This document shows positions 17,606 to 49,132 of a DNA stretch of 64,000 nucleotides, piece after piece. A program made the translations under genes and the position numbers. Source of the DNA: Fervidobacterium gondwanense DSM 13020 (GTDB taxonomy: Bacteria > Thermotogota > Thermotogae > Thermotogales > Fervidobacteriaceae). The stretch lies in the NCBI RefSeq assembly GCF_900143265.1, contig NZ_FRDJ01000001.1, positions 62,001-126,000 on the forward strand, read 5' to 3'. Numbering within the stretch: position 1 is the stretch's first letter; every line of letters begins with the position of its first letter. The notes beneath the pieces are model-generated. The model ran no database searches. It was not told where the DNA came from and worked only from the letters and a program-made list of their open reading frames with translations.

Positions 17606-18690
17606 TTACTTTCGCTTAAAACTAATTCTCCAAATGTAAAAATCCTTCTTGTCCGAGCTCGTGAACAGATAGTTATATGAATACGTATAATTCACACTGT
17701 TAATGTTTGCATAAATCAATGCATCATTCACCGCTCTTGAAAGATTACTGGCTATAAAATCTCCTTCACCTACTAAGAGTACTTCCTTCCCATTCTTAAT
17801 CATATAGTAAATGTAATTCACCAGTTCGTCGTATTTCAAGACTAAATATCCATACAGCAAACTGAATGTTTCCCTCGCAGAGCTACTGTTGTACCTGACT
17901 ATTTCCTCATACAACTTCTCTGCGTAACTCTTCGCAGAAATCGTGCCTGGAAGCTTTGTTTCCGGATAGTGCGAGTACTTTGCTTGATTCGTGCCGAAAA
18001 ACAAATATGCATTTACTCCCATGCTGTCGTTCCACGTTGTGTCGACATAGAACAGCTCACTGCCTATCTTCACGACATTCCAAGCGTGCGATTGAAGAGC
18101 TGTCGCATCCTTTCCTGGTACTTTCCCCTGCCCGCTTACCAAATATGCCTGCAATCCAGCCGCTTTCGCTAACCGATAGAACAGCAGTGCGTAACCCTGG
18201 CACACACCCCTGCGGTTCTTGAGCGTTGCGTAAGCGCTTTTGTACGTATACGAACTATCGTATTCGATATTCAGCTTCATCCATTCGTTTATCATGAAGA
18301 CCTTCTTTGTATCACTCTTATACCATTCAATATAGCTGAAATATTCTTCTGGATAAAATCATCTACAGCCTTTCGCTCTGCGGGTGTTTCGACGTAAGTG
18401 TACGTGATAGTCGTTGTTACGGTACCGAGCTGTTCAACTGAATTCTCTTCCCATCGCTGCAAAAATAAACTTTCACCGATGCTCTTAATAACCGAATCTA
18501 CGACTTTGAGCATCGTTGAATTATTCGTCCCGTACGCTAACAAAACTGTTGTCGGTTCAAAGTTCAAAATATCGGTCACAATAACTTTCTCTATCTCATC
18601 TGCCGAGCGCACTTTGTACGTTTGACCAATGAGCATTGTGTCGATTGATATCAAAACAACAAAGCAAACTAAACAAACTTTTCTAAACAA
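17606..18690 (-). pseudogene. Exported transglutaminase-like protein, frameshifted
   Basis: Two overlapping frames read like one gene. The upstream part (18690-18292) begins at a TTG seven bases after GGAGG and has a signal peptide ending near LIGQ. The downstream part (from 18295) holds a transglutaminase/protease-like core: RGVCQGYALL (cysteine), SHAWNVV (histidine) and YVDTTWND (aspartate). In the frame of the core, the sequence stays protein-like upstream of its ATG (YIEWYKSDTKKVF), back to a four-base A run on the plus strand at 18355-18358. There it would join the first frame after KAVDD. So one roughly 360-residue protein has been split by a single-base slip. Alternatives are two ATGA-overlapping genes, or a sequencing error. 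Function of such secreted domains is unknown. Confidence 0.72.
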
Positions 18691-18732
18691 CCTTCCGCCT
18701 CCAATCTGGGAATGTTGCTGTTCGGATAACTT

Positions 18733-18778
18733 TCTCGACACCGTCGACAAGCTCGACAATTTCTGGACAGGCTCGACA
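18733..18778. repeat. 46-bp direct repeat, copy 1
   Basis: This copy differs from the one at 21733-21778 by one base (position 28 of the unit) and lies exactly 3000 bp away in the same orientation. Internally it holds five variants of the heptamer CTCGACA (CTCGACA, GTCGACA, CTCGACA, CTGGACA, CTCGACA) at intervals of 9, 9, 11 and 9 bases. The copy lies immediately upstream of the start of the frameshifted transglutaminase gene and before the first ATPase gene. Confidence 0.85.
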
Positions 18779-18820
18779 GCAGTCTATTGAAATTATATCA
18801 CAAGATTGTCGCCGGCTTAT

Positions 18821-18870
18821 TTATGGTATAATATACTAAGCGTTATTATACTAATTTAGATTAGTATAAT
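18821..18870 (+). promoter_or_regulatory. Extended -10 promoter and perfect inverted repeat of the first ATPase gene
   Basis: TTATGGTATAAT (18821-18832) is an extended -10 element (TGG-TATAAT); the same 12 bases recur before the second ATPase gene. Just downstream, at 18845-18870, perfect 11-base arms ATTATACTAAT and ATTAGTATAAT flank a TTAG spacer. The repeat would cover the transcription start region, the usual position of a repressor operator. The gene start follows 37 bases later after GAGGTGAT. Confidence 0.65.
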
Positions 18871-18906
18871 CACGATTATAATATCAAACCGCAGAGGTGA
18901 TGAAAG

Positions 18907-20286
18907 ATGTTTATTAACAGGTTTGAAGAGAAGGATTTCCTCAACAACCTTATAAGCTCAAACAAACGCGAAGTTGTGATACTATACGGTAGGAGAAGAG
19001 TTGGAAAGAGTGCGTTGCTGAAAGAAGTTACAAAAGACAAGAAGGTGTTTTATTACACGGCACGCAAGGTATCAAAAGCTGAACAGCTCGAAACATTTTC
19101 AAGAGTCCTTGGCTCATTTCTCAAAATCGGGAACGTGTCTTTCAAAACGTGGGAAGATGCTCTGAGATCGCTATTCACTCTCTCTACGAAGGAGAAAGTT
19201 ATAGTCGTCCTTGATGAATTTCAGTACCTTGCAGAGAATAACGAAGAAATCCTATCTGTTTTGCAGATTCTTCTTGATGAGTATGAAAATTCAATGCTAA
19301 AGTTATTTTTTTGTGGCTCAAGCATAAGTTTCATGGAGGGTGTATTATCACACAACAACCCACTCTTTGGAAGAAAAAGTGCAGTTTTAAAGCTGAATCC
19401 TGTATCTTTCGAGCACCTCAAGCTTTTTATCCCACAGTACGATTATCACCAACTTTTAGAAACATACTCTATAGTCGGTGGTGTGCCTTACCACTTAACG
19501 CTATGGGATGGTACAAAAAGTGTGCTTGAAAATATACAGAACCTGTTTCTAAAACTCGGTGCCCCGCTTAAAGAAGAACCGAGCTTTATTCTCTTTCAGG
19601 AACTTCGCGAACCAGCAATGTACCAATCAATATTGGAGGCACTTGCAAGCGGAAGAAATAAATTGAGCGAGATAACCTCATTTATCGGCGAAACCGATTC
19701 AAGAAAACTCCAACCGTACATAAAGTCGTTGATGACACTAAAATTAATCAAACGCGTCTCGCCTGCGTTATTCAAGAATCCACACAGAACAAAAGATTTC
19801 CGATATGAAATTGAAGATGAACTATTCAGATTCTGGTATAGATACATATTCCCTTACAAAGAGAACGTCGACTTGAACGAGTATCAACATGTTTTAGAAA
19901 ACATAAAAGCGGACTTGACACAATACGTCTCATTCGAATTTGAAAAGCAAAGCACTCAATATGTCAAGAAAGCCTTTAATCTTGTGCAAGCAGGAAGATA
20001 CTGGGCGAAAGATATAGAGATAGACATTCTTGGAAAAGATAATAACGGGAGGATATATGCTGGAGAAGTTAAATGGAGAAACAAAAAGGTTGGGTTGAAG
20101 GAATACATCGGCCTAAAGACAAAAGCCGACAAGCTACGAATACCCGTAGACTATTTCATACTCATTTCCAAGAGTGGATTTGAAGAAGACCTCTTCAAAC
20201 TAAACGAGAATCTCTATCTAATAGAATTCACAAAAGAAAATGGATGGGTTGTTAGATTTTCTCCTGATTCATCGGCAGAACGATAG
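18907..20286 (+). CDS. Archaeal-type AAA+ ATPase with C-terminal DUF234 nuclease-like domain
   Basis: 459 residues. The N-terminal half is the PF01637 P-loop ATPase: Walker A GRRRVGKSALLKE at about residue 30 and Walker B VIVVLDEFQYLAE near 100, with a sensor region LFFCGSSISFMEG. The middle part is a winged-helix segment (NKLSEITSFIGETDSRKLQPY). The C-terminus has the DUF234 PD-(D/E)XK-like core: DIEIDILGK, then GEVKWRNKK. Many thermophiles carry several of these genes, and their role is unknown; defence, mobile element or DNA-end processing have been proposed. It has its own promoter with an inverted repeat and, with the next gene, is enclosed by 46-bp direct repeats. Confidence 0.88.
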   Translation: MFINRFEEKDFLNNLISSNKREVVILYGRRRVGKSALLKEVTKDKKVFYYTARKVSKAEQLETFSRVLGSFLKIGNVSFKTWEDALRSLFTLSTKEKVIVVLDEFQYLAENNEEILSVLQILLDEYENSMLKLFFCGSSISFMEGVLSHNNPLFGRKSAVLKLNPVSFEHLKLFIPQYDYHQLLETYSIVGGVPYHLTLWDGTKSVLENIQNLFLKLGAPLKEEPSFILFQELREPAMYQSILEALASGRNKLSEITSFIGETDSRKLQPYIKSLMTLKLIKRVSPALFKNPHRTKDFRYEIEDELFRFWYRYIFPYKENVDLNEYQHVLENIKADLTQYVSFEFEKQSTQYVKKAFNLVQAGRYWAKDIEIDILGKDNNGRIYAGEVKWRNKKVGLKEYIGLKTKADKLRIPVDYFILISKSGFEEDLFKLNENLYLIEFTKENGWVVRFSPDSSAER

Positions 20287-20349
20287 CAGAAACTCGGTAC
20301 TATCAAACAAGCGCAAAAACATATAGACTTTTGTGATTTTCGTACTAAT

Positions 20350-20422
20350 GTGGAAATCCACTTCCATTTTAGTCCGAGAATTTAGGAAGTCGACTTCCAG
20401 AATTCTCGGATTATGGTATAAT
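20350..20422 (+). promoter_or_regulatory. Palindrome-rich promoter of the second ATPase gene
   Basis: Within the 175-base gap, three symmetric elements are stacked. GTGGAAATCCAC (20350-20361) is a perfect inverted repeat. A 36-base palindrome at 20374-20409, centred on GTCGAC, pairs all but two positions per arm. Two related 14-base motifs, GGAAATCCACTTCC (20352-20365) and GGAAGTCGACTTCC (20385-20398), match at 12 of 14 positions and are 33 bp apart, about three helical turns. The extended -10 TTATGGTATAAT follows at 20411-20422, so the palindrome covers the -35 region. This looks like a two-site operator for a dimeric repressor. Confidence 0.65.
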
Positions 20423-20461
20423 TGTACCTGAGCTGTCGAATCCTCAAGGGAGATGAGAGCG

Positions 20462-21718
20462 ATGAGGTTAATAAAACGAGAAATCGTAAAGGAATTAAGA
20501 CAGCATTTGCAAAAGCCAGAGATAACGTTTCTCGTTGGACCAAGGCAAGCTGGGAAGACAACTATTCTCAGAATCTTAGAAAACGAGCTGAAAGCTCAGG
20601 GAAAGAAAACACTCTTCCTCAACCTCGATATCGAGGAAGATAAGATGCATTTCTCCTCTCAATCCAGCCTTCTAAAGAAGATAGAGCTCGAAATTGGCAA
20701 AGAAGGTTTCGTGTTTATCGATGAAATCCAACGAAAAGAAGATGCAGGTGTCTTTTTAAAGGGTATATACGACATGGGTCTACCGTATAAATTCATCGTT
20801 TCTGGCTCTGGAAGTGTGGAGCTCAAAGAGAGGCTTCACGAATCGCTCGCAGGTCGAAAGCGCTTGTTTGAGATATCTACGCTATCTTTCGAGGAATTTG
20901 TTAACTTCAAGACGGACTATAGATACGAGATGAACTTAGAGACATTCTTTGACTTAGAAAAAGCCAAAACTCTAAGTCTACTAAATGAGTATCTGCACTT
21001 TGGTGGATATCCAAGAGTTGTATTAGAAGACCAATTAAAGGAAAAAAGACTAACGATAAGCGAGATATACAGAAGCTATGTTGAAAAGGACATAACGTAC
21101 CTGCTCCGCGTTGTGCGAATTGAAGAATTCACCACACTTGTAAGAATCTTAGCTTCTCTGTCAGGAAGAATGCTTAATCTAACAAACCTGTCTTCTGAGG
21201 CGGGAGTATCGTCGAAAACCGTAAAGCAATACCTATGGTATCTACAACAAACATACATAATAGACCTGATAACACCTTTCTCAACAAACCGAATTAAGGA
21301 ATTAACAAAAGCACCGACTGCCTATTTCACAGACTTGGGCTTGAGAAACTACGCTGCAGGTGTTTTTGGAAACCTTGCTGATTTTGGTTTCGTCTTTCAA
21401 AACTTCGTTTATTTGAAGCTCAAAAGACTTTCTAAAGAGCATGATTTCACCGTGCACTTCTGGAGAACGAAAGATAATGCTGAGGTAGATTTCGTCCTCA
21501 CGAAAGAAGACAAAATCATCCCAATTGAAGTCAAATACAAGAGCATTGAAGAGCCAGCTGCGACAAGAAGCTTGCAGAGCTTTATCAACAGATACGACCC
21601 TGAGAAGGCAATATTGGTAAACATCTTCGGAAGACGAACAGAAAGAATAAAAGATACTACGCTGGAGTTAGTTCCGTTCTACATGCTTGACAAGTTGATA
21701 TCGGGGTTATTCTCCTAA
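20462..21718 (+). CDS. AAA ATPase with DUF4143 (AAA_14 type)
   Basis: About 418 residues. AAA_14 ATPase domain with Walker A GPRQAGKTTILR near residue 30, Walker B FVFIDEIQR near 88 and the sensor VSGSGSVELKERL. A winged-helix segment (LNLTNLSSEAGVSSKTVKQY) precedes the DUF4143 C-terminus, which ends in a PD-(D/E)XK-like core: HFWRTKDNAEVDFVL followed by PIEVKYK. The ATG at 20462 is nine bases after AAGGGAG and is preferred to the ATG at 20453. Function is unknown in the family. The palindromic promoter sets it apart from the gene upstream, so it is probably transcribed and regulated separately. Confidence 0.9.
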   Translation: MRLIKREIVKELRQHLQKPEITFLVGPRQAGKTTILRILENELKAQGKKTLFLNLDIEEDKMHFSSQSSLLKKIELEIGKEGFVFIDEIQRKEDAGVFLKGIYDMGLPYKFIVSGSGSVELKERLHESLAGRKRLFEISTLSFEEFVNFKTDYRYEMNLETFFDLEKAKTLSLLNEYLHFGGYPRVVLEDQLKEKRLTISEIYRSYVEKDITYLLRVVRIEEFTTLVRILASLSGRMLNLTNLSSEAGVSSKTVKQYLWYLQQTYIIDLITPFSTNRIKELTKAPTAYFTDLGLRNYAAGVFGNLADFGFVFQNFVYLKLKRLSKEHDFTVHFWRTKDNAEVDFVLTKEDKIIPIEVKYKSIEEPAATRSLQSFINRYDPEKAILVNIFGRRTERIKDTTLELVPFYMLDKLISGLFS

Positions 21719-21732
21719 GAGTTTCTTCACTG

Positions 21733-21778
21733 TCTCGACACCGTCGACAAGCTCGACAAATTCTGGACAGGCTCGACA
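21733..21778. repeat. 46-bp direct repeat, copy 2
   Basis: Second copy of the heptamer-based repeat, in the 70-base gap between the convergent ends of the ATPase and amidase genes. Same orientation as copy 1 and one mismatch. Because copy 2 is between two 3' ends while copy 1 is near a 5' end, a shared promoter or terminator role is unlikely. A footprint of insertion or recombination, or a dispersed repeat family, fits better. Confidence 0.85.
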
Positions 21779-21789
21779 ATCGCATAAAA

Positions 21790-22686
21790 TCAAATAGATA
21801 CGCCTAATCTCTCTAAGATATCCACAGGCATGCTGAACCTTGTGGTGACAAGCGGGTCCACAACCTGAGAAATCTCCGTATTCCCAACTATGCTAAACAA
21901 CATCACCAATTCTTCGGGACTAATATTCGTTCGGCTCATTACGAACTCAAACATATCGCCCACAGCTTCTTTCACAGCTTCATCGAGCGTCTTTGATGAG
22001 ACCAATGTGAATACTATTCCCTCGGACACAACCATGGGGTTCTTTAAACTCAAGTTCTTTCGTACACGCACTACTGTTCGAACTTCTCCTGCGACTTCTA
22101 TTCCAGTACCGCAAACCTCCCCATCGCCCATGAGCGCATGCAAATCACCAAGTGCAAGCAAACCACCTTTGACGGAAACTGGTAAAAACACCCTTGCACC
22201 TTTCTTTATGTACCTCGTGTCCAAATTCCCACCGTGCGAACCCGGCGTTCCGCAATTTATCGTCCCTTCCTTCGGTGCAACACCGATTACACCTACCATG
22301 GGTTCTATATCGAGCTCCAAATCGTTGAAAATAGCCTTCGAATTCTCAACCTTGACTATTTTTGTATAATACCCCTCGAACTTCCCTCCAAGCGGTCCGA
22401 GTCCTTTTCCCGTTGCCATCACACCTTGATTATTCACTTTTATATCCACTATCTGTATTTCCAGCACATCTCCCGGCTCTGCACCGTTCACAAAGACTGG
22501 ACCAGTTGCTGGATTTACCTGGTTCCAGTCGAGGCTCTCAAGCTTATCTTCGCAAGTCTTTATCTGGTTGGAAAAACAATCAAGCGTTTCGAAAACAACC
22601 TCATCACCGCTATTTACAGAAACAGCAGGAGCATTATCCGGCGAAAATGCGAAAACCTTCTTTTGCGTATCTACAAAATGCCTCAC
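21790..22686 (-). CDS. Acetamidase/formamidase family protein
   Basis: About 298 residues, full length for the FmdA/AmdA family, which hydrolyses formamide, acetamide or similar small amides to ammonia and the acid. Diagnostic pieces are NPATGPVFVNGAEPGDVL, the GTINCGTPGSHGGNLD segment with metal-ligand histidines, and GDLHALMGDGEVCGTG. The start is probably the GTG at 22686, six bases after GGGGGG; an ATG at 22692 is too close to the site. Actual substrate is not known. It sits immediately after a HAD phosphatase gene in what seems a two-gene operon. Confidence 0.9.
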   Translation of the reverse strand: MRHFVDTQKKVFAFSPDNAPAVSVNSGDEVVFETLDCFSNQIKTCEDKLESLDWNQVNPATGPVFVNGAEPGDVLEIQIVDIKVNNQGVMATGKGLGPLGGKFEGYYTKIVKVENSKAIFNDLELDIEPMVGVIGVAPKEGTINCGTPGSHGGNLDTRYIKKGARVFLPVSVKGGLLALGDLHALMGDGEVCGTGIEVAGEVRTVVRVRKNLSLKNPMVVSEGIVFTLVSSKTLDEAVKEAVGDMFEFVMSRTNISPEELVMLFSIVGNTEISQVVDPLVTTRFSMPVDILERLGVSI

Positions 22687-22706
22687 ACCCATCCCCCCTA
22701 CTAAGA

Positions 22707-23327
22707 TCACTCTACAGGATGCCCCAACACTTTTTCAAGCTCTTCTTTCAAAACCCTGTAGTCGGTCAAGTGTATTACTGAAAATCCCAACCTACTTGCC
22801 GTCTCGATATTGTCCTTCCTATCATCTATAAACAGCGAATGCATCGGCACAACACCGTAGCGCTCCATAAGCTCGTAGAAGATATCCTCATTCGGCTTTA
22901 TCTTTTTCACGTGGCTCGATATGACCATACCGTCGAAATACTTAAAGAATTCAAACGTATTGTACACATGCTCAAACGCTTTGTAGCTGAAATTAGAAAG
23001 CACGAGCAGCCTGTATCCCATCTTTTTCAACACCGGCAACAGTTTGGCATTCTCCTCAATCGGTTTCAAAAGGCTGAGCACCGCACTCTTCATGTGGCGA
23101 ATGTACTCGCCATACTCGGGGTATCTTTCCTCAACCATCTTCCAAAACTGGGCTTCTGAGATCTCTCCCTTATCCATCAAGTTCCACTCTTCAATCGAGA
23201 AAACCTTCTCCGTTAGCACCTTCGCAACTTCTTCGTCGAAGTGCTCTACCATGTACCCGTAAGGGTCCCAGTGAATCAAAACTCTCCCAAGGTCGAAAAC
23301 AATCGTATCTATCTGTTTAGCCCCCAT
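22707..23327 (-). CDS. HAD-superfamily hydrolase, subfamily IA (YihX-like)
   Basis: About 206 residues. Motif I VFDLGRVLIHWDP carries a single aspartate followed by Gly where the second catalytic aspartate normally lies, as in YihX-type phosphatases (DLGxV). Motif II is LLVLSNFS, motif III the lysine in HVKKIKPNEDIF and motif IV FIDDRKDNIETA. Such enzymes dephosphorylate sugar phosphates (YihX acts on glucose 1-phosphate). The start at ATG 23327 follows GGAGG by nine bases. It shares a transcription unit with the amidase gene. Confidence 0.87.
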   Translation of the reverse strand: MGAKQIDTIVFDLGRVLIHWDPYGYMVEHFDEEVAKVLTEKVFSIEEWNLMDKGEISEAQFWKMVEERYPEYGEYIRHMKSAVLSLLKPIEENAKLLPVLKKMGYRLLVLSNFSYKAFEHVYNTFEFFKYFDGMVISSHVKKIKPNEDIFYELMERYGVVPMHSLFIDDRKDNIETASRLGFSVIHLTDYRVLKEELEKVLGHPVE

Positions 23328-23377
23328 AATATCCAACCTCCCTCTGCTTTCTTGGATTACATTTTATCACATCTTCA

Positions 23378-23386
23378 TGATATAAT
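23378..23386 (+). promoter_or_regulatory. Extended -10 element before the glycosyltransferase gene
   Basis: TGATATAAT, an extended -10 box, lies 46 bases before the ATG at 23433 in the divergent gap after the HAD gene. No convincing -35 box is present at the usual distance, as expected for extended -10 promoters. Confidence 0.5.
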
Positions 23387-23432
23387 AAATTCCGTCGAAT
23401 TTCTAATCATCTTAAAAGGAGAGAAAATAAAT

Positions 23433-24428
23433 ATGGCTGTTCTACCACTCGTTTCGGTAATTCTCCCAACTCTCAACGAAGAAAAAACAATCGAAAAGAC
23501 AATAATTAGCTTTATCGAATCGGATTACCAAAATGTTGAACTCATAGTCGTCGACGGCATGAGCTCAGACAGAACGAGAGAAATAGTCGAAAGGCTCAAA
23601 GAAAAATACCCAAACAAAATAAGATTGCTTGAGAATTCCAAAAAATATACGCCATCCGGTATAAACATCGGCATCAAGAATGCAAACGGAAAGTACATTA
23701 TGCTTGCAAGCGGACATGCGTCTTACTCAAAAAATTACATCTCTGCCTGTGTCCAAGCGCTTGAAAACAACGAATGCGACGTAGCAGGCGGGGTTATGGA
23801 AGTCTTGCCAAGAAGTAGCAACGTAAAAGCCGTTGCTATAAGCGAAATATTGAAACACCCATTCGGAATAGGCGGTGCGAAATATAGAACAAACAACCAG
23901 AAGAAAGAATACGTCGACACCGTTGCGTACGGCATATACAAAAGGGAAATCTTTGAAAAAGTAGGGCTTTTCAATGAAGAACTAATAAGAAACCAAGACA
24001 TTGAATTCAACATCCGATTAAAAAACGCTGGCTACAAGATATTGCTCATTCCAGAAGCTCGAGCATATTACTATGCGAGGGACACATACACAAAACTATG
24101 GCAAAATAACTACTCAAACGGCTTTTGGGTAACCCACAGCTCCAAATTCGTCAAAAGGGCATATCGACCAAGACATTTAGTGCCGATGCTCTTTGTCTTG
24201 TATCTCATTTCTTTGCTCTTATTGCTCTTGCCAGTGAATAGAGTTCTGAAGTTTTTATACGCACTCCCTGCTTCTCTGTACCTGGCTCTGAGCATTTACT
24301 TCTCATCACAGGTTGCAATCAAGCACAAAAAGATTGCGCTCGTTCCTTATACATTCTTTTCATTCTTAGTTTTGCACATCTCATATGGCATCGGTTCGAT
24401 AGTGGGAATCTTTAAGAATAGGAGATGA
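23433..24428 (+). CDS. Family 2 glycosyltransferase, membrane anchored
   Basis: 331 residues. The GT-A domain begins at once: VSVILPTLNEEKTI, then VVDGMSSDRTRE with the nucleotide-binding aspartates, and RNQDIEFNIRLKNAGYK as the acceptor-side motif. The C-terminus has two to three membrane helices (LFVLYLISLLLLLLPV and onward). Similar to ExoA-like succinoglycan glycosyltransferases. The ATG at 23433 follows AAAAGGAGAG; the open frame upstream to 23241 overlaps the promoter and the divergent HAD gene and is not coding. The LCP gene starts seven bases after its stop, so both probably serve cell-envelope polymer synthesis. Confidence 0.88.
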   Translation: MAVLPLVSVILPTLNEEKTIEKTIISFIESDYQNVELIVVDGMSSDRTREIVERLKEKYPNKIRLLENSKKYTPSGINIGIKNANGKYIMLASGHASYSKNYISACVQALENNECDVAGGVMEVLPRSSNVKAVAISEILKHPFGIGGAKYRTNNQKKEYVDTVAYGIYKREIFEKVGLFNEELIRNQDIEFNIRLKNAGYKILLIPEARAYYYARDTYTKLWQNNYSNGFWVTHSSKFVKRAYRPRHLVPMLFVLYLISLLLLLLPVNRVLKFLYALPASLYLALSIYFSSQVAIKHKKIALVPYTFFSFLVLHISYGIGSIVGIFKNRR

Positions 24429-24435
24429 GAAAGAT

Positions 24436-25392
24436 ATGCAAAATTTCTTGAAATTCATTGTCGCATTCTCGTTATCTTTGATAATAACAGCAATCATCGT
24501 CGGGGTATACCTCAACACAAGGCTTGAAAAAATTAAATTCACAGACTTGTTCAGTCTCGAAGAAGTTTATGCCGCAAAAGATACGAACAACCCGACAGCT
24601 CCAAGCAACGAAAAATTTGCGGCTGTGCTCTTTGGTCTTGACGCAAGGCAAGAAGGAGAACACGCAAGGAGCGATACGATAATGGTATTGCTAATAGACC
24701 ATGCTAATAAAAAAATAAAGCTTGCTTCGATAATGAGAGATCTGTACGTTAAAATCCCCGGATTTGACAAAAGAAAGATAAACAGTGCATACGAACTCGG
24801 CGGTCCGAAACTTGCACTTGCAACGCTTAACAAAACGTTCCAGTTATCTTTAACAAGATACGCTACCGTCGATTTTGAAGGGTTCGAAAAGATAATAGAC
24901 GCCGTCGGTGGCGTTGAAATAGATGTTAAACCAGAAGAAGTTGAACATATAAACATAAACATGCGAGAGGTAAAAAATTTGCTTGGCGGAAAACTTCCTG
25001 AAGTCAAAAAGCCCGGCTTGCAAAAACTGAATGGGCGACAGGCTCTTGCATATGCAAGGATAAGATACGTTGGCAATGCTGACTACGAGCGCGTTCAACG
25101 CCAACAGAGAGTCCTCGAGCAGGTATTTGAAAAGCTGAAGAGAGCTTCGGTATCTACAAAACTAAGGGTAATCAACATGGTGCTTCCATATATAGAAACC
25201 AACATTCCAAAGTCAGAGCTCATCTCGCTCGGAAGCAGGAACTACTCGACATACACACTCGAAAGATTCAGAGTGCCAATAAACGGTTCATTCCAAGAAG
25301 GACACGCAATGATAGATGGTGTGAATCAGTGGGTGTTTATAACAGATATACCCAAAAACATAAAAGCATTGCATGAATTTCTGGGAAAGTGA
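24436..25392 (+). CDS. LytR-CpsA-Psr (LCP) family protein
   Basis: 318 residues with an N-terminal membrane anchor (about residues 5-25) and an extracytoplasmic LCP domain. Typical pieces are LFGLDARQEGEHARSDTIM, the arginine-containing SIMRDLYVKIPG, INSAYELGGPKLALATLN, DFEGFEKIIDAVGGVEI, and the YARIRYVGNADYERVQRQQ motif. LCP enzymes transfer undecaprenyl-linked glycans to a surface acceptor. In a Thermotogales cell with a thin wall and toga the acceptor is unclear. The adjacent membrane glycosyltransferase may supply the glycan. Confidence 0.92.
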   Translation: MQNFLKFIVAFSLSLIITAIIVGVYLNTRLEKIKFTDLFSLEEVYAAKDTNNPTAPSNEKFAAVLFGLDARQEGEHARSDTIMVLLIDHANKKIKLASIMRDLYVKIPGFDKRKINSAYELGGPKLALATLNKTFQLSLTRYATVDFEGFEKIIDAVGGVEIDVKPEEVEHININMREVKNLLGGKLPEVKKPGLQKLNGRQALAYARIRYVGNADYERVQRQQRVLEQVFEKLKRASVSTKLRVINMVLPYIETNIPKSELISLGSRNYSTYTLERFRVPINGSFQEGHAMIDGVNQWVFITDIPKNIKALHEFLGK

Positions 25393-47803: not shown

Positions 47804-49132
47804 ATGACACGCGAAGAGATATTACAAGTTCTCATGAGATGGAACAACTGGGGAAGAGGAATGGCAATAAATACCATTCTTAGAACAACGAGCGAAGAAG
47901 CAAACATTTTAATAAATTACCAAGGCGTCGTTGTGATTAAAGGACCGCGTCGAGCAGGAAAATCGACGCTTCTGTACCAAGTTATGGACACTCTCTCAGC
48001 CGAACGAGAGCAACGAAGCCTTTTATATGTCAACTTCGAAGACTATGCGTTTTCTTCCGAAAGACTGACACCAAAAATGATTGAAGCCATAATCGATGTT
48101 TACAGGCAGGAGATATATCCGGAAGGTAATTTCGTACTGTTCTTGGACGAAATTCAAAACGTTGAAAACTGGCACAGATGGGTTCGAACGGCTATCGATT
48201 CTGGTCTGGTGAAAACGATTTTCGTGACTGGTTCTTCATCTAAATTACTCTCTGCTGAATTTGCAACGTTACTTTCAGGAAGACATGTAGACATCGAGCT
48301 GTTGCCTTTTTCGTTCAGAGAGTATGTCAACGCTGAAGGATATAACCCATCGGATAGAATTGAAGTGTTGTCAAATAGCAACTTGTACCTTTCTCTTCTC
48401 AAAAATTACCTTACGTACGGCGGATTTCCAGAAGTAGTTGTCGATGAAAAGAAAGAATTTCTTGCATACAAAATCCTGTCTCAGTATGCAGAAGACATGA
48501 TCCTTAAAGATGTAACGGCAAGGTACAACATTCAAAATCTAAGGCTTTTGAAAGCACTTTCAAAAATAATCGCACAAAATGTGTCAAACAAACTCTCTAT
48601 CCGGAAGCTTCAACGGGAACTTGAAGAAGTTTTCGGAGAGAAATCGTCAACGACGACTTTTTCCAATTACATCGACCACCTGGAATCCGCGTACTTCTGT
48701 TTTAGCGTACACAAATTCGACTATTCTGTGAAAGAAAGTACCAAGTCGCCCGCAAAATATTACCTTGTCGACACAGGTTTGAGGAACGCAATTTCACCGT
48801 CATTCACTCCCGACCGCGGACGATTACTCGAAAATGCAGTCTACCTAAAATTACGTGCAATTTATGAAGAAATATACTATTGGGAAGGGCGGAACGAAAT
48901 AGACTTTGTATGTCGAAAAGAGAATAGGCTCGACCTCTATAACGTAGCATATGCTTCAAACGAGGATGAAATCAAAGATAGAGAATTAAAAGGCTTTGCT
49001 GAATTCCCATACCGCTCGAACGGAAATTACCTCATAACTTGGGATTTGTGGAAAGAAATCTCGTACAACGGCGTGAAGATACAATGCATACCTGCGCATT
49101 TGTTCTTGCTCAATATGTGGAAACAAGATTAA
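47804..49132 (+). CDS. AAA ATPase with DUF4143 (AAA_14 type)
   Basis: 442 residues. Walker A GPRRAGKSTLLYQV near residue 48, Walker B FVLFLDEIQNVENWHRWV near 115, sensor VTGSSSKLLSAEFATLLSG with the usual SGR..D..LLPFSFREY, then the DUF4143 region (YGGFPEVVV ... DTGLRNAISPSF) and a nuclease-like end (IYYWEGRNEIDFVCRK). The expected lysine-containing strand after the aspartate is poorly preserved (LYNVAYASNE), so nuclease activity is doubtful. ATG at 47804 is eight bases after GGGGG; the frame extension to 47750 overlaps the -10 box. Function in the family is unknown. Confidence 0.9.
   Translation: MTREEILQVLMRWNNWGRGMAINTILRTTSEEANILINYQGVVVIKGPRRAGKSTLLYQVMDTLSAEREQRSLLYVNFEDYAFSSERLTPKMIEAIIDVYRQEIYPEGNFVLFLDEIQNVENWHRWVRTAIDSGLVKTIFVTGSSSKLLSAEFATLLSGRHVDIELLPFSFREYVNAEGYNPSDRIEVLSNSNLYLSLLKNYLTYGGFPEVVVDEKKEFLAYKILSQYAEDMILKDVTARYNIQNLRLLKALSKIIAQNVSNKLSIRKLQRELEEVFGEKSSTTTFSNYIDHLESAYFCFSVHKFDYSVKESTKSPAKYYLVDTGLRNAISPSFTPDRGRLLENAVYLKLRAIYEEIYYWEGRNEIDFVCRKENRLDLYNVAYASNEDEIKDRELKGFAEFPYRSNGNYLITWDLWKEISYNGVKIQCIPAHLFLLNMWKQD

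Follow-up and report, generated by a model that had tools for sequence, protein, structure and literature searches.

What is a 46-bp sequence doing in two near-identical copies exactly 3,000 bp apart, on either side of a pair of ATPase genes, in a 64,000-nucleotide stretch of the Fervidobacterium gondwanense DSM 13020 genome (contig NZ_FRDJ01000001.1, positions 62,001–126,000; hereafter the window), and to which element does it belong? Comparing the window with its relatives, we propose that this repeat, R, is the repeat of a mobile unit of the Thermotogota, R-orc-R, in which two copies of R bracket a single AAA+ ATPase gene (orc) and which moves by way of R; we place the probability of this reading at roughly 0.6. 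The ATPase pair of the window is cargo of R, not its owner.

The two copies of R (18733–18778 and 21733–21778, both on the plus strand) agree at 45 of 46 positions, with the sole mismatch at position 28 (T/A) and identity ending at the repeat edges; by chance, about 6e-16 pairs of this kind would be expected in 64 kb. As the original prediction described, each copy is built from five CTCGACA-like heptamers, which in copy 1 begin at 18734 (CTCGACA), 18743 (GTCGACA), 18752 (CTCGACA), 18763 (CTGGACA) and 18772 (CTCGACA), and which follow one another at spacings of 9, 9, 11 and 9 in both copies. R alone folds no better than its shuffles, and its interpretation as a hairpin or attC-like site was rejected. 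The exact 3,000-bp distance, measured start to start, is a coincidence, as R–R distances elsewhere vary, from about 1.24–1.32 kb around orc to 1.3, 1.5, 3.0 and 4.1 kb at other sites.

The suggestion of a dispersed repeat family was borne out. Searched at an E-value of 0.01, 40 of 103 related genomes contained matches to R, some of them weak, at a low copy number of one to five per genome and across the Thermotogota; in the window's own genome (G000 in our numbering; a 2.15-Mb assembly of 26 contigs) the only significant copies are those of the window. The orc family is present in 36 of the 103 genomes, and the commonest arrangement of R, absent from the window, is a direct pair about 1.24–1.32 kb apart around a single orc gene. 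A position-specific scan located R at the orc loci of one subfamily (group A), nearly all as a direct pair, with the 3′ copy decayed in G001 and G020 and both copies decayed in G030. R always reads antisense to orc, and the ends are direct repeats in all R pairs; the 3′ copy lies 2–19 bp past the orc stop codon and the 5′ copy mostly 13–150 bp before the start, with a few longest-open-reading-frame starts or ends of orc overlapping R. Across both subfamilies, strong direct repeats (score of at least 25) bracket 26 of 33 orc genes compared with 5 of 157 neighbouring genes, all five of which lie in G011 and G019, where a different dispersed repeat is seen. Separately, in G028, orc occurs as two distant halves, each with an R, beside IS200/IS605-like genes, and in two genomes of one genus a solo R occupies the same site between CRISPR (Cmr/Csm-like) genes (L084, position 4371; L085, position 4324).

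The second subfamily (group B), whose proteins are about 36–41% identical to those of group A, is bracketed by a repeat that keeps the five-iteron layout but not the sequence (TGTCACA in place of TGTCGAN), such as TGTCACAACTGTCACAGATTGTCGACAGTTGTCACATAAGTCACAA, with iterons starting at 1, 10, 20, 30 and 39 rather than at 1, 10, 21, 30 and 39; a recognizable repeat pair was not found at the group-B orc genes of G006, G012, G017 and G093. Distances between orc proteins and distances between their repeats are correlated (Mantel r = 0.77, P = 1e-4), and dereplication to 19 leaves the result unchanged. Several genomes contain both subfamilies, each beside its own type of repeat; distances were measured in G019, G022, G024 and G096, where the same-genome pairs stand about 0.6 apart in protein and about 0.6 apart in repeat. 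Species history could give part of the correlation, but not the same-genome pairs. Because repeat and protein co-diverge, including within a single genome, we infer that the orc protein recognizes the iterons of R.

The predicted orc product is an AAA+ ATPase of about 385 residues with a C-terminal winged helix (AlphaFold model, predicted local distance difference test score of 84) and the Walker A/B and sensor 2 elements of an AAA+ core (motifs GETGIGKT, IDELDKE and GNPRDA). Pfam returns weak AAA matches, and the orc1/cdc6 model TIGR02928 scores 25.1 bits, far below its cut-off of 181.3. By structure, the top match of the model in the Protein Data Bank is Sulfolobus Cdc6/Orc1 (2qby_A; Foldseek E = 5e-12; VIA Z = 18.7 over 318 residues at a root mean squared deviation of 8.2 Å), with 2v1u and 1fnn close behind (Z = 18.1 each; deviations of 7–9 Å across the three), and both the AAA+ core and the C-terminal winged helix of the Orc1/Cdc6 fold are present in it. 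The modelled fold is Orc1/Cdc6-like; in fold, the orc protein is replication-initiator-like, and an initiator function is putative.

Near-identical R-orc-R units occur at different loci. Two units of Marinitoga genomes (G080 and G084) are 96.7% identical and share 13–34 bp beyond their R copies; those of G081 and G084 share 1–2 bp; three units of one family (f9) are about 95% identical in different surroundings, with 14–74 bp shared; and in several Thermotoga/Pseudothermotoga pairs the shared sequence runs on past R for 1–2 bp at one end and for about 110 bp at the other. Relatives also show the same site in filled and in empty form. At the window's own locus, G007 carries a single R at the homologous position, the empty site that the original prediction had proposed to look for, whereas G004 and G008 carry R-orc-R and the window carries R-ATPase-ATPase-R; between G007 and G004, one flank together with R is identical over 146 of 146 positions and the other flank is about 83% identical. 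A Marinitoga site filled with R-orc-R in G079 holds a single R in G082, the flanks being about 84–94% identical, and a third pair, G034 (empty) and G024 (filled), is less clean and weaker on one side. Near-identical units at different loci, together with empty-site counterparts in relatives, indicate from sequence comparison that R-orc-R is mobile.

The second R of G082 is an insertion of about 66 bp relative to the R-less sequence of G079, from which it follows that new R sites arise, or are lost precisely; this insertion lies within an A-run, which leaves a target-site duplication undecidable. Apart from this pairwise case, a joined-flank search for R-less Marinitoga sites returned flanks that were multicopy or matched separately. 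A hotspot beside an MNT/HEPN-like gene pair has two R sites, empty or filled according to species, along with decayed orc fragments. Such gene pairs stand near R sites in several genera (five loci), where short repeats of the TTTATCGAA/TTCGATAAA type are dispersed. R can also bound cargo other than orc, with 4.1 kb in G082 and G085, 3.0 kb in G069, 1.5 kb in G032 and 1.3 kb in G037.

In a rival reading, without mobility, R might be the operator of orc, with the downstream copy a second operator for looping and solo copies left by occasional direct-repeat deletion of orc. Such a regulatory module would account for the closeness of the 5′ R to the orc promoter, with TATAAT-like boxes between the two at several loci, for the closer approach of the 5′ than the 3′ copy to the consensus in Thermotoga, G020 and G001, and for the co-divergence of repeat and protein. 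It sits poorly with near-identical units at unrelated loci whose homology ends at or near R, with R copies in three genomes that have no orc gene (G000, G007 and G023) and with a site that gained R relative to its R-less homologue, and we consider it unlikely.

The insertion into an R-less site would suit a transposon-like element with R as the end sequence of a host or insertion-sequence recombinase acting in trans and orc as a target selector or regulator comparable to TnsC, MuB or IstB. Several Marinitoga R-orc-R units (four loci) directly adjoin terminator-like hairpins, hinting at a target preference, and the AAA+ transposition regulators TnsC and MuB are also structural matches of the orc model (Z = 14.2 and 13.5). 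Yet the ends are direct rather than inverted repeats, there is no clear target duplication and no recombinase gene between the R copies, and the closest fold is that of Orc1/Cdc6, so that this explanation, too, is improbable in our judgement.

At the window's locus, the DNA between the two R copies holds, as was claimed, only two genes on the plus strand, between minus-strand neighbours. ATPase 1 (18907–20286) is an ATPase_2 plus DUF234 AAA ATPase and ATPase 2 (20453–21718) an AAA_14 plus DUF4143 ATPase; they match the PADLOC candidate defence families PDC-S27 and PDC-S01, respectively, as model matches only. R copy 1, a landing site without orc, falls within the 5′ leader of a transglutaminase-like gene (17606–18735, minus strand), which is frameshifted, as noted originally, into minus-strand open reading frames at 18292–18759 and 17606–18295 but is intact in relatives (356–405 residues); G004, G007 and G008 have their R sites at the corresponding position beside this gene. 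R copy 2, likewise an orc-less landing site, lies between ATPase 2, whose stop codon it follows by 14 bp, and the end of an acetamidase/formamidase family gene (21790–22710, minus strand), 11 bp away. The two window copies differ from each other at 1 of 46 positions, but from every orc-bracketing R pair compared at four or more.

A segment of G004 of about 5.4 kb (L071, 7132–11001; L189, 1–1572) is 98–100% identical to window positions 19951–25392. It contains part of ATPase 1, ATPase 2 and an identical R copy 2, without R copy 1, and its truncated ATPase 1 stands beside an IS21-like gene pair. Because other genes at the locus are about 65–76% identical between these two Fervidobacterium species, the region has moved between strains recently. 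The arrangement in the window can be read in two ways. In one, orc has gone from both of two former landing sites that happen to flank the ATPase pair; in the other, the pair has taken the place of orc in a cassette bounded by R, a reading kept in view by the R-bounded non-orc cargo of other genomes.

Could the ATPase pair itself be a mobile unit of 3 kb that recombines at R, as first proposed? Attachment-like behaviour of the repeats is indeed what the comparison supports, and several features would fit such a unit: the position of R copy 2 just past ATPase 2, like that of the 3′ R of orc, the different contents of the transglutaminase R site in different species, the other R-bounded cargo and the recent transfer into G004 of a related segment with ATPase 2 and R copy 2. 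The R copies are nonetheless not the ends of an ATPase-pair element. R occurs at unrelated loci without these ATPases, and G004 and G008 have both R copies with orc between them in place of the pair, two outcomes that the original prediction had itself given as grounds for refutation. The transferred G004 copy is without R copy 1, no second R-ATPase1-ATPase2-R case was found, and R covaries with orc. Homologues of ATPase 1 in other genera (68–70% identical) have no R within the flanking sequence covered (about 1.5 kb at most), and a conserved palindrome of its own lies upstream of ATPase 1; R was rejected on these grounds as a property of the window ATPases. We consider a mobile ATPase pair doubtful.

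That palindrome is an AT-rich inverted repeat, ATTATACTAAT...ATTAGTATAAT (18825–18890), which is not part of R; it is kept upstream of homologues of the DUF234 ATPase in other genera (four loci) and probably serves as an operator or binding site of that ATPase itself. The direct repeats that accompany other DUF234 ATPases belong to a different dispersed repeat, of the GAGGAATCTT type. Between the two ATPase genes lies an inverted repeat (20370–20413) of two 22-bp arms that are 86% complementary, a possible operator or terminator, and a second DUF4143-like ATPase, 32% identical to ATPase 2, is encoded at 47915–49000. In several genomes of the same family (five loci), orc genes and DUF234/DUF4143 ATPases stand within about 2–15 kb of each other, which suggests that they share a hotspot.

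A chance match or a functionless, simple dispersed repeat, which would fit the low copy number and nothing else, is refuted by the expectation given above and by the phylum-wide bracketing of one gene family, and its probability is negligible.

We therefore return to R-orc-R as a unit that moves by way of R. In the mechanism that we propose, the orc ATPase would bind the iterons of R; recombination between the two R copies would release the unit as a circle with one R; the circle would insert again, either into another R or into a fresh site; and each passage would leave a solo R. Such a circle, in which an initiator gene adjoins iterons, would resemble a minimal replicon, and R would probably serve also as an origin or as the operator of orc. 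The favoured form is accordingly an initiator–iteron mini-replicon that integrates and excises at R, although the replicon step, taken alone, is a tentative proposal that we hold at somewhat less than even odds. More speculative still is the joint proposition that R-orc-R represents a class of one-gene selfish DNA that consists of nothing more than an Orc1/Cdc6-like initiator of archaeal/eukaryotic type and the iteron array cognate to it, and which may move between iteron sites of bacterial chromosomes without a dedicated recombinase and may carry R-bounded candidate defence genes, the ATPase pair of the window among them.

Several points weigh against this proposal. Plasmid, phage and IMG/VR collections yielded no free circle, plasmid or phage copy of R-orc-R, and virus and plasmid collections gave no match to the group-B repeat pattern; one IMG/VR pattern match (L246) does not reach a score for R, and its surroundings are unrelated. 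The sole open reading frame between the R copies encodes the AAA+ ATPase, with no recombinase, relaxase or transposase in the unit, and insertion at R-less sites needs more than homologous recombination between R copies. Binding of R by the orc ATPase and replication from R are both predictions. In the window, no remnant of orc was found near or between the R copies, and the ATPase genes run opposite to orc relative to R. In G007, G004 and G008 the gene directly next to R is not the acetamidase gene, and hence other rearrangements have also affected the window around R copy 2.

Judged against Pfam, NCBIfam, PHROGs, PADLOC, the plasmid, phage and IMG/VR collections and the open-access literature, in which we found no description of it (subscription journals lay outside the search), the R-orc-R unit is previously undescribed. 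Replication in bacteria is initiated by DnaA. An Orc1/Cdc6-like protein travelling with its own probable binding repeats would, if true, be an unusual bacterial home for an archaeal and eukaryotic initiator fold, and few known mobile units would be as small as R-orc-R. Some cells house both orc subfamilies, each with its cognate repeat, which offers a ready test of binding specificity. DUF234/DUF4143 ATPases, which form a large and poorly understood family of PADLOC candidate anti-phage genes, are often found close to R landing sites.

Among the closest parallels is the archaeal orc1/cdc6 gene beside an origin bearing origin recognition boxes, as in the replicator units of archaeal chromosomes and plasmids, with which R-orc-R shares an Orc1/Cdc6-like AAA+ and winged-helix protein and a gene flanked by repeated, presumably bound sites; R-orc-R differs in being bacterial, in its two same-orientation 46-bp arrays that exactly bracket a single gene, in its unconserved position and in an origin that is putative only, as well as in its distance in sequence from TIGR02928. 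Integrated iteron plasmids likewise combine an initiator-like gene with phased direct repeats whose sequence varies together with that of the protein, and R-bracketed integration is what would be expected of a circle with one R, but no plasmid form was found in the collections searched, and the would-be Rep of R-orc-R is AAA+ and Orc-like in a unit of about 1.3 kb that carries this gene alone. Integron cassettes and island arrays at attachment sites resemble it as one-gene units with one repeat when empty and two when filled, and in having several same-orientation repeats at hotspots; in R-orc-R, no integrase is present in the unit (only loci were read), R is not an attC-like palindrome, and the protein of the mobile gene co-varies with the repeat. 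Insertion sequences, miniature inverted-repeat transposable elements and solo long-terminal-repeat scars share the solo repeats left behind and, in Marinitoga, the insertion next to terminators, whereas R-orc-R has direct terminal repeats, no transposase and one or two units per genome. The DUF234/DUF4143 AAA ATPases of the PDC-S27 and PDC-S01 candidate systems, finally, are the same as the genes enclosed in the window, where they are cargo between repeats that belong to another gene.

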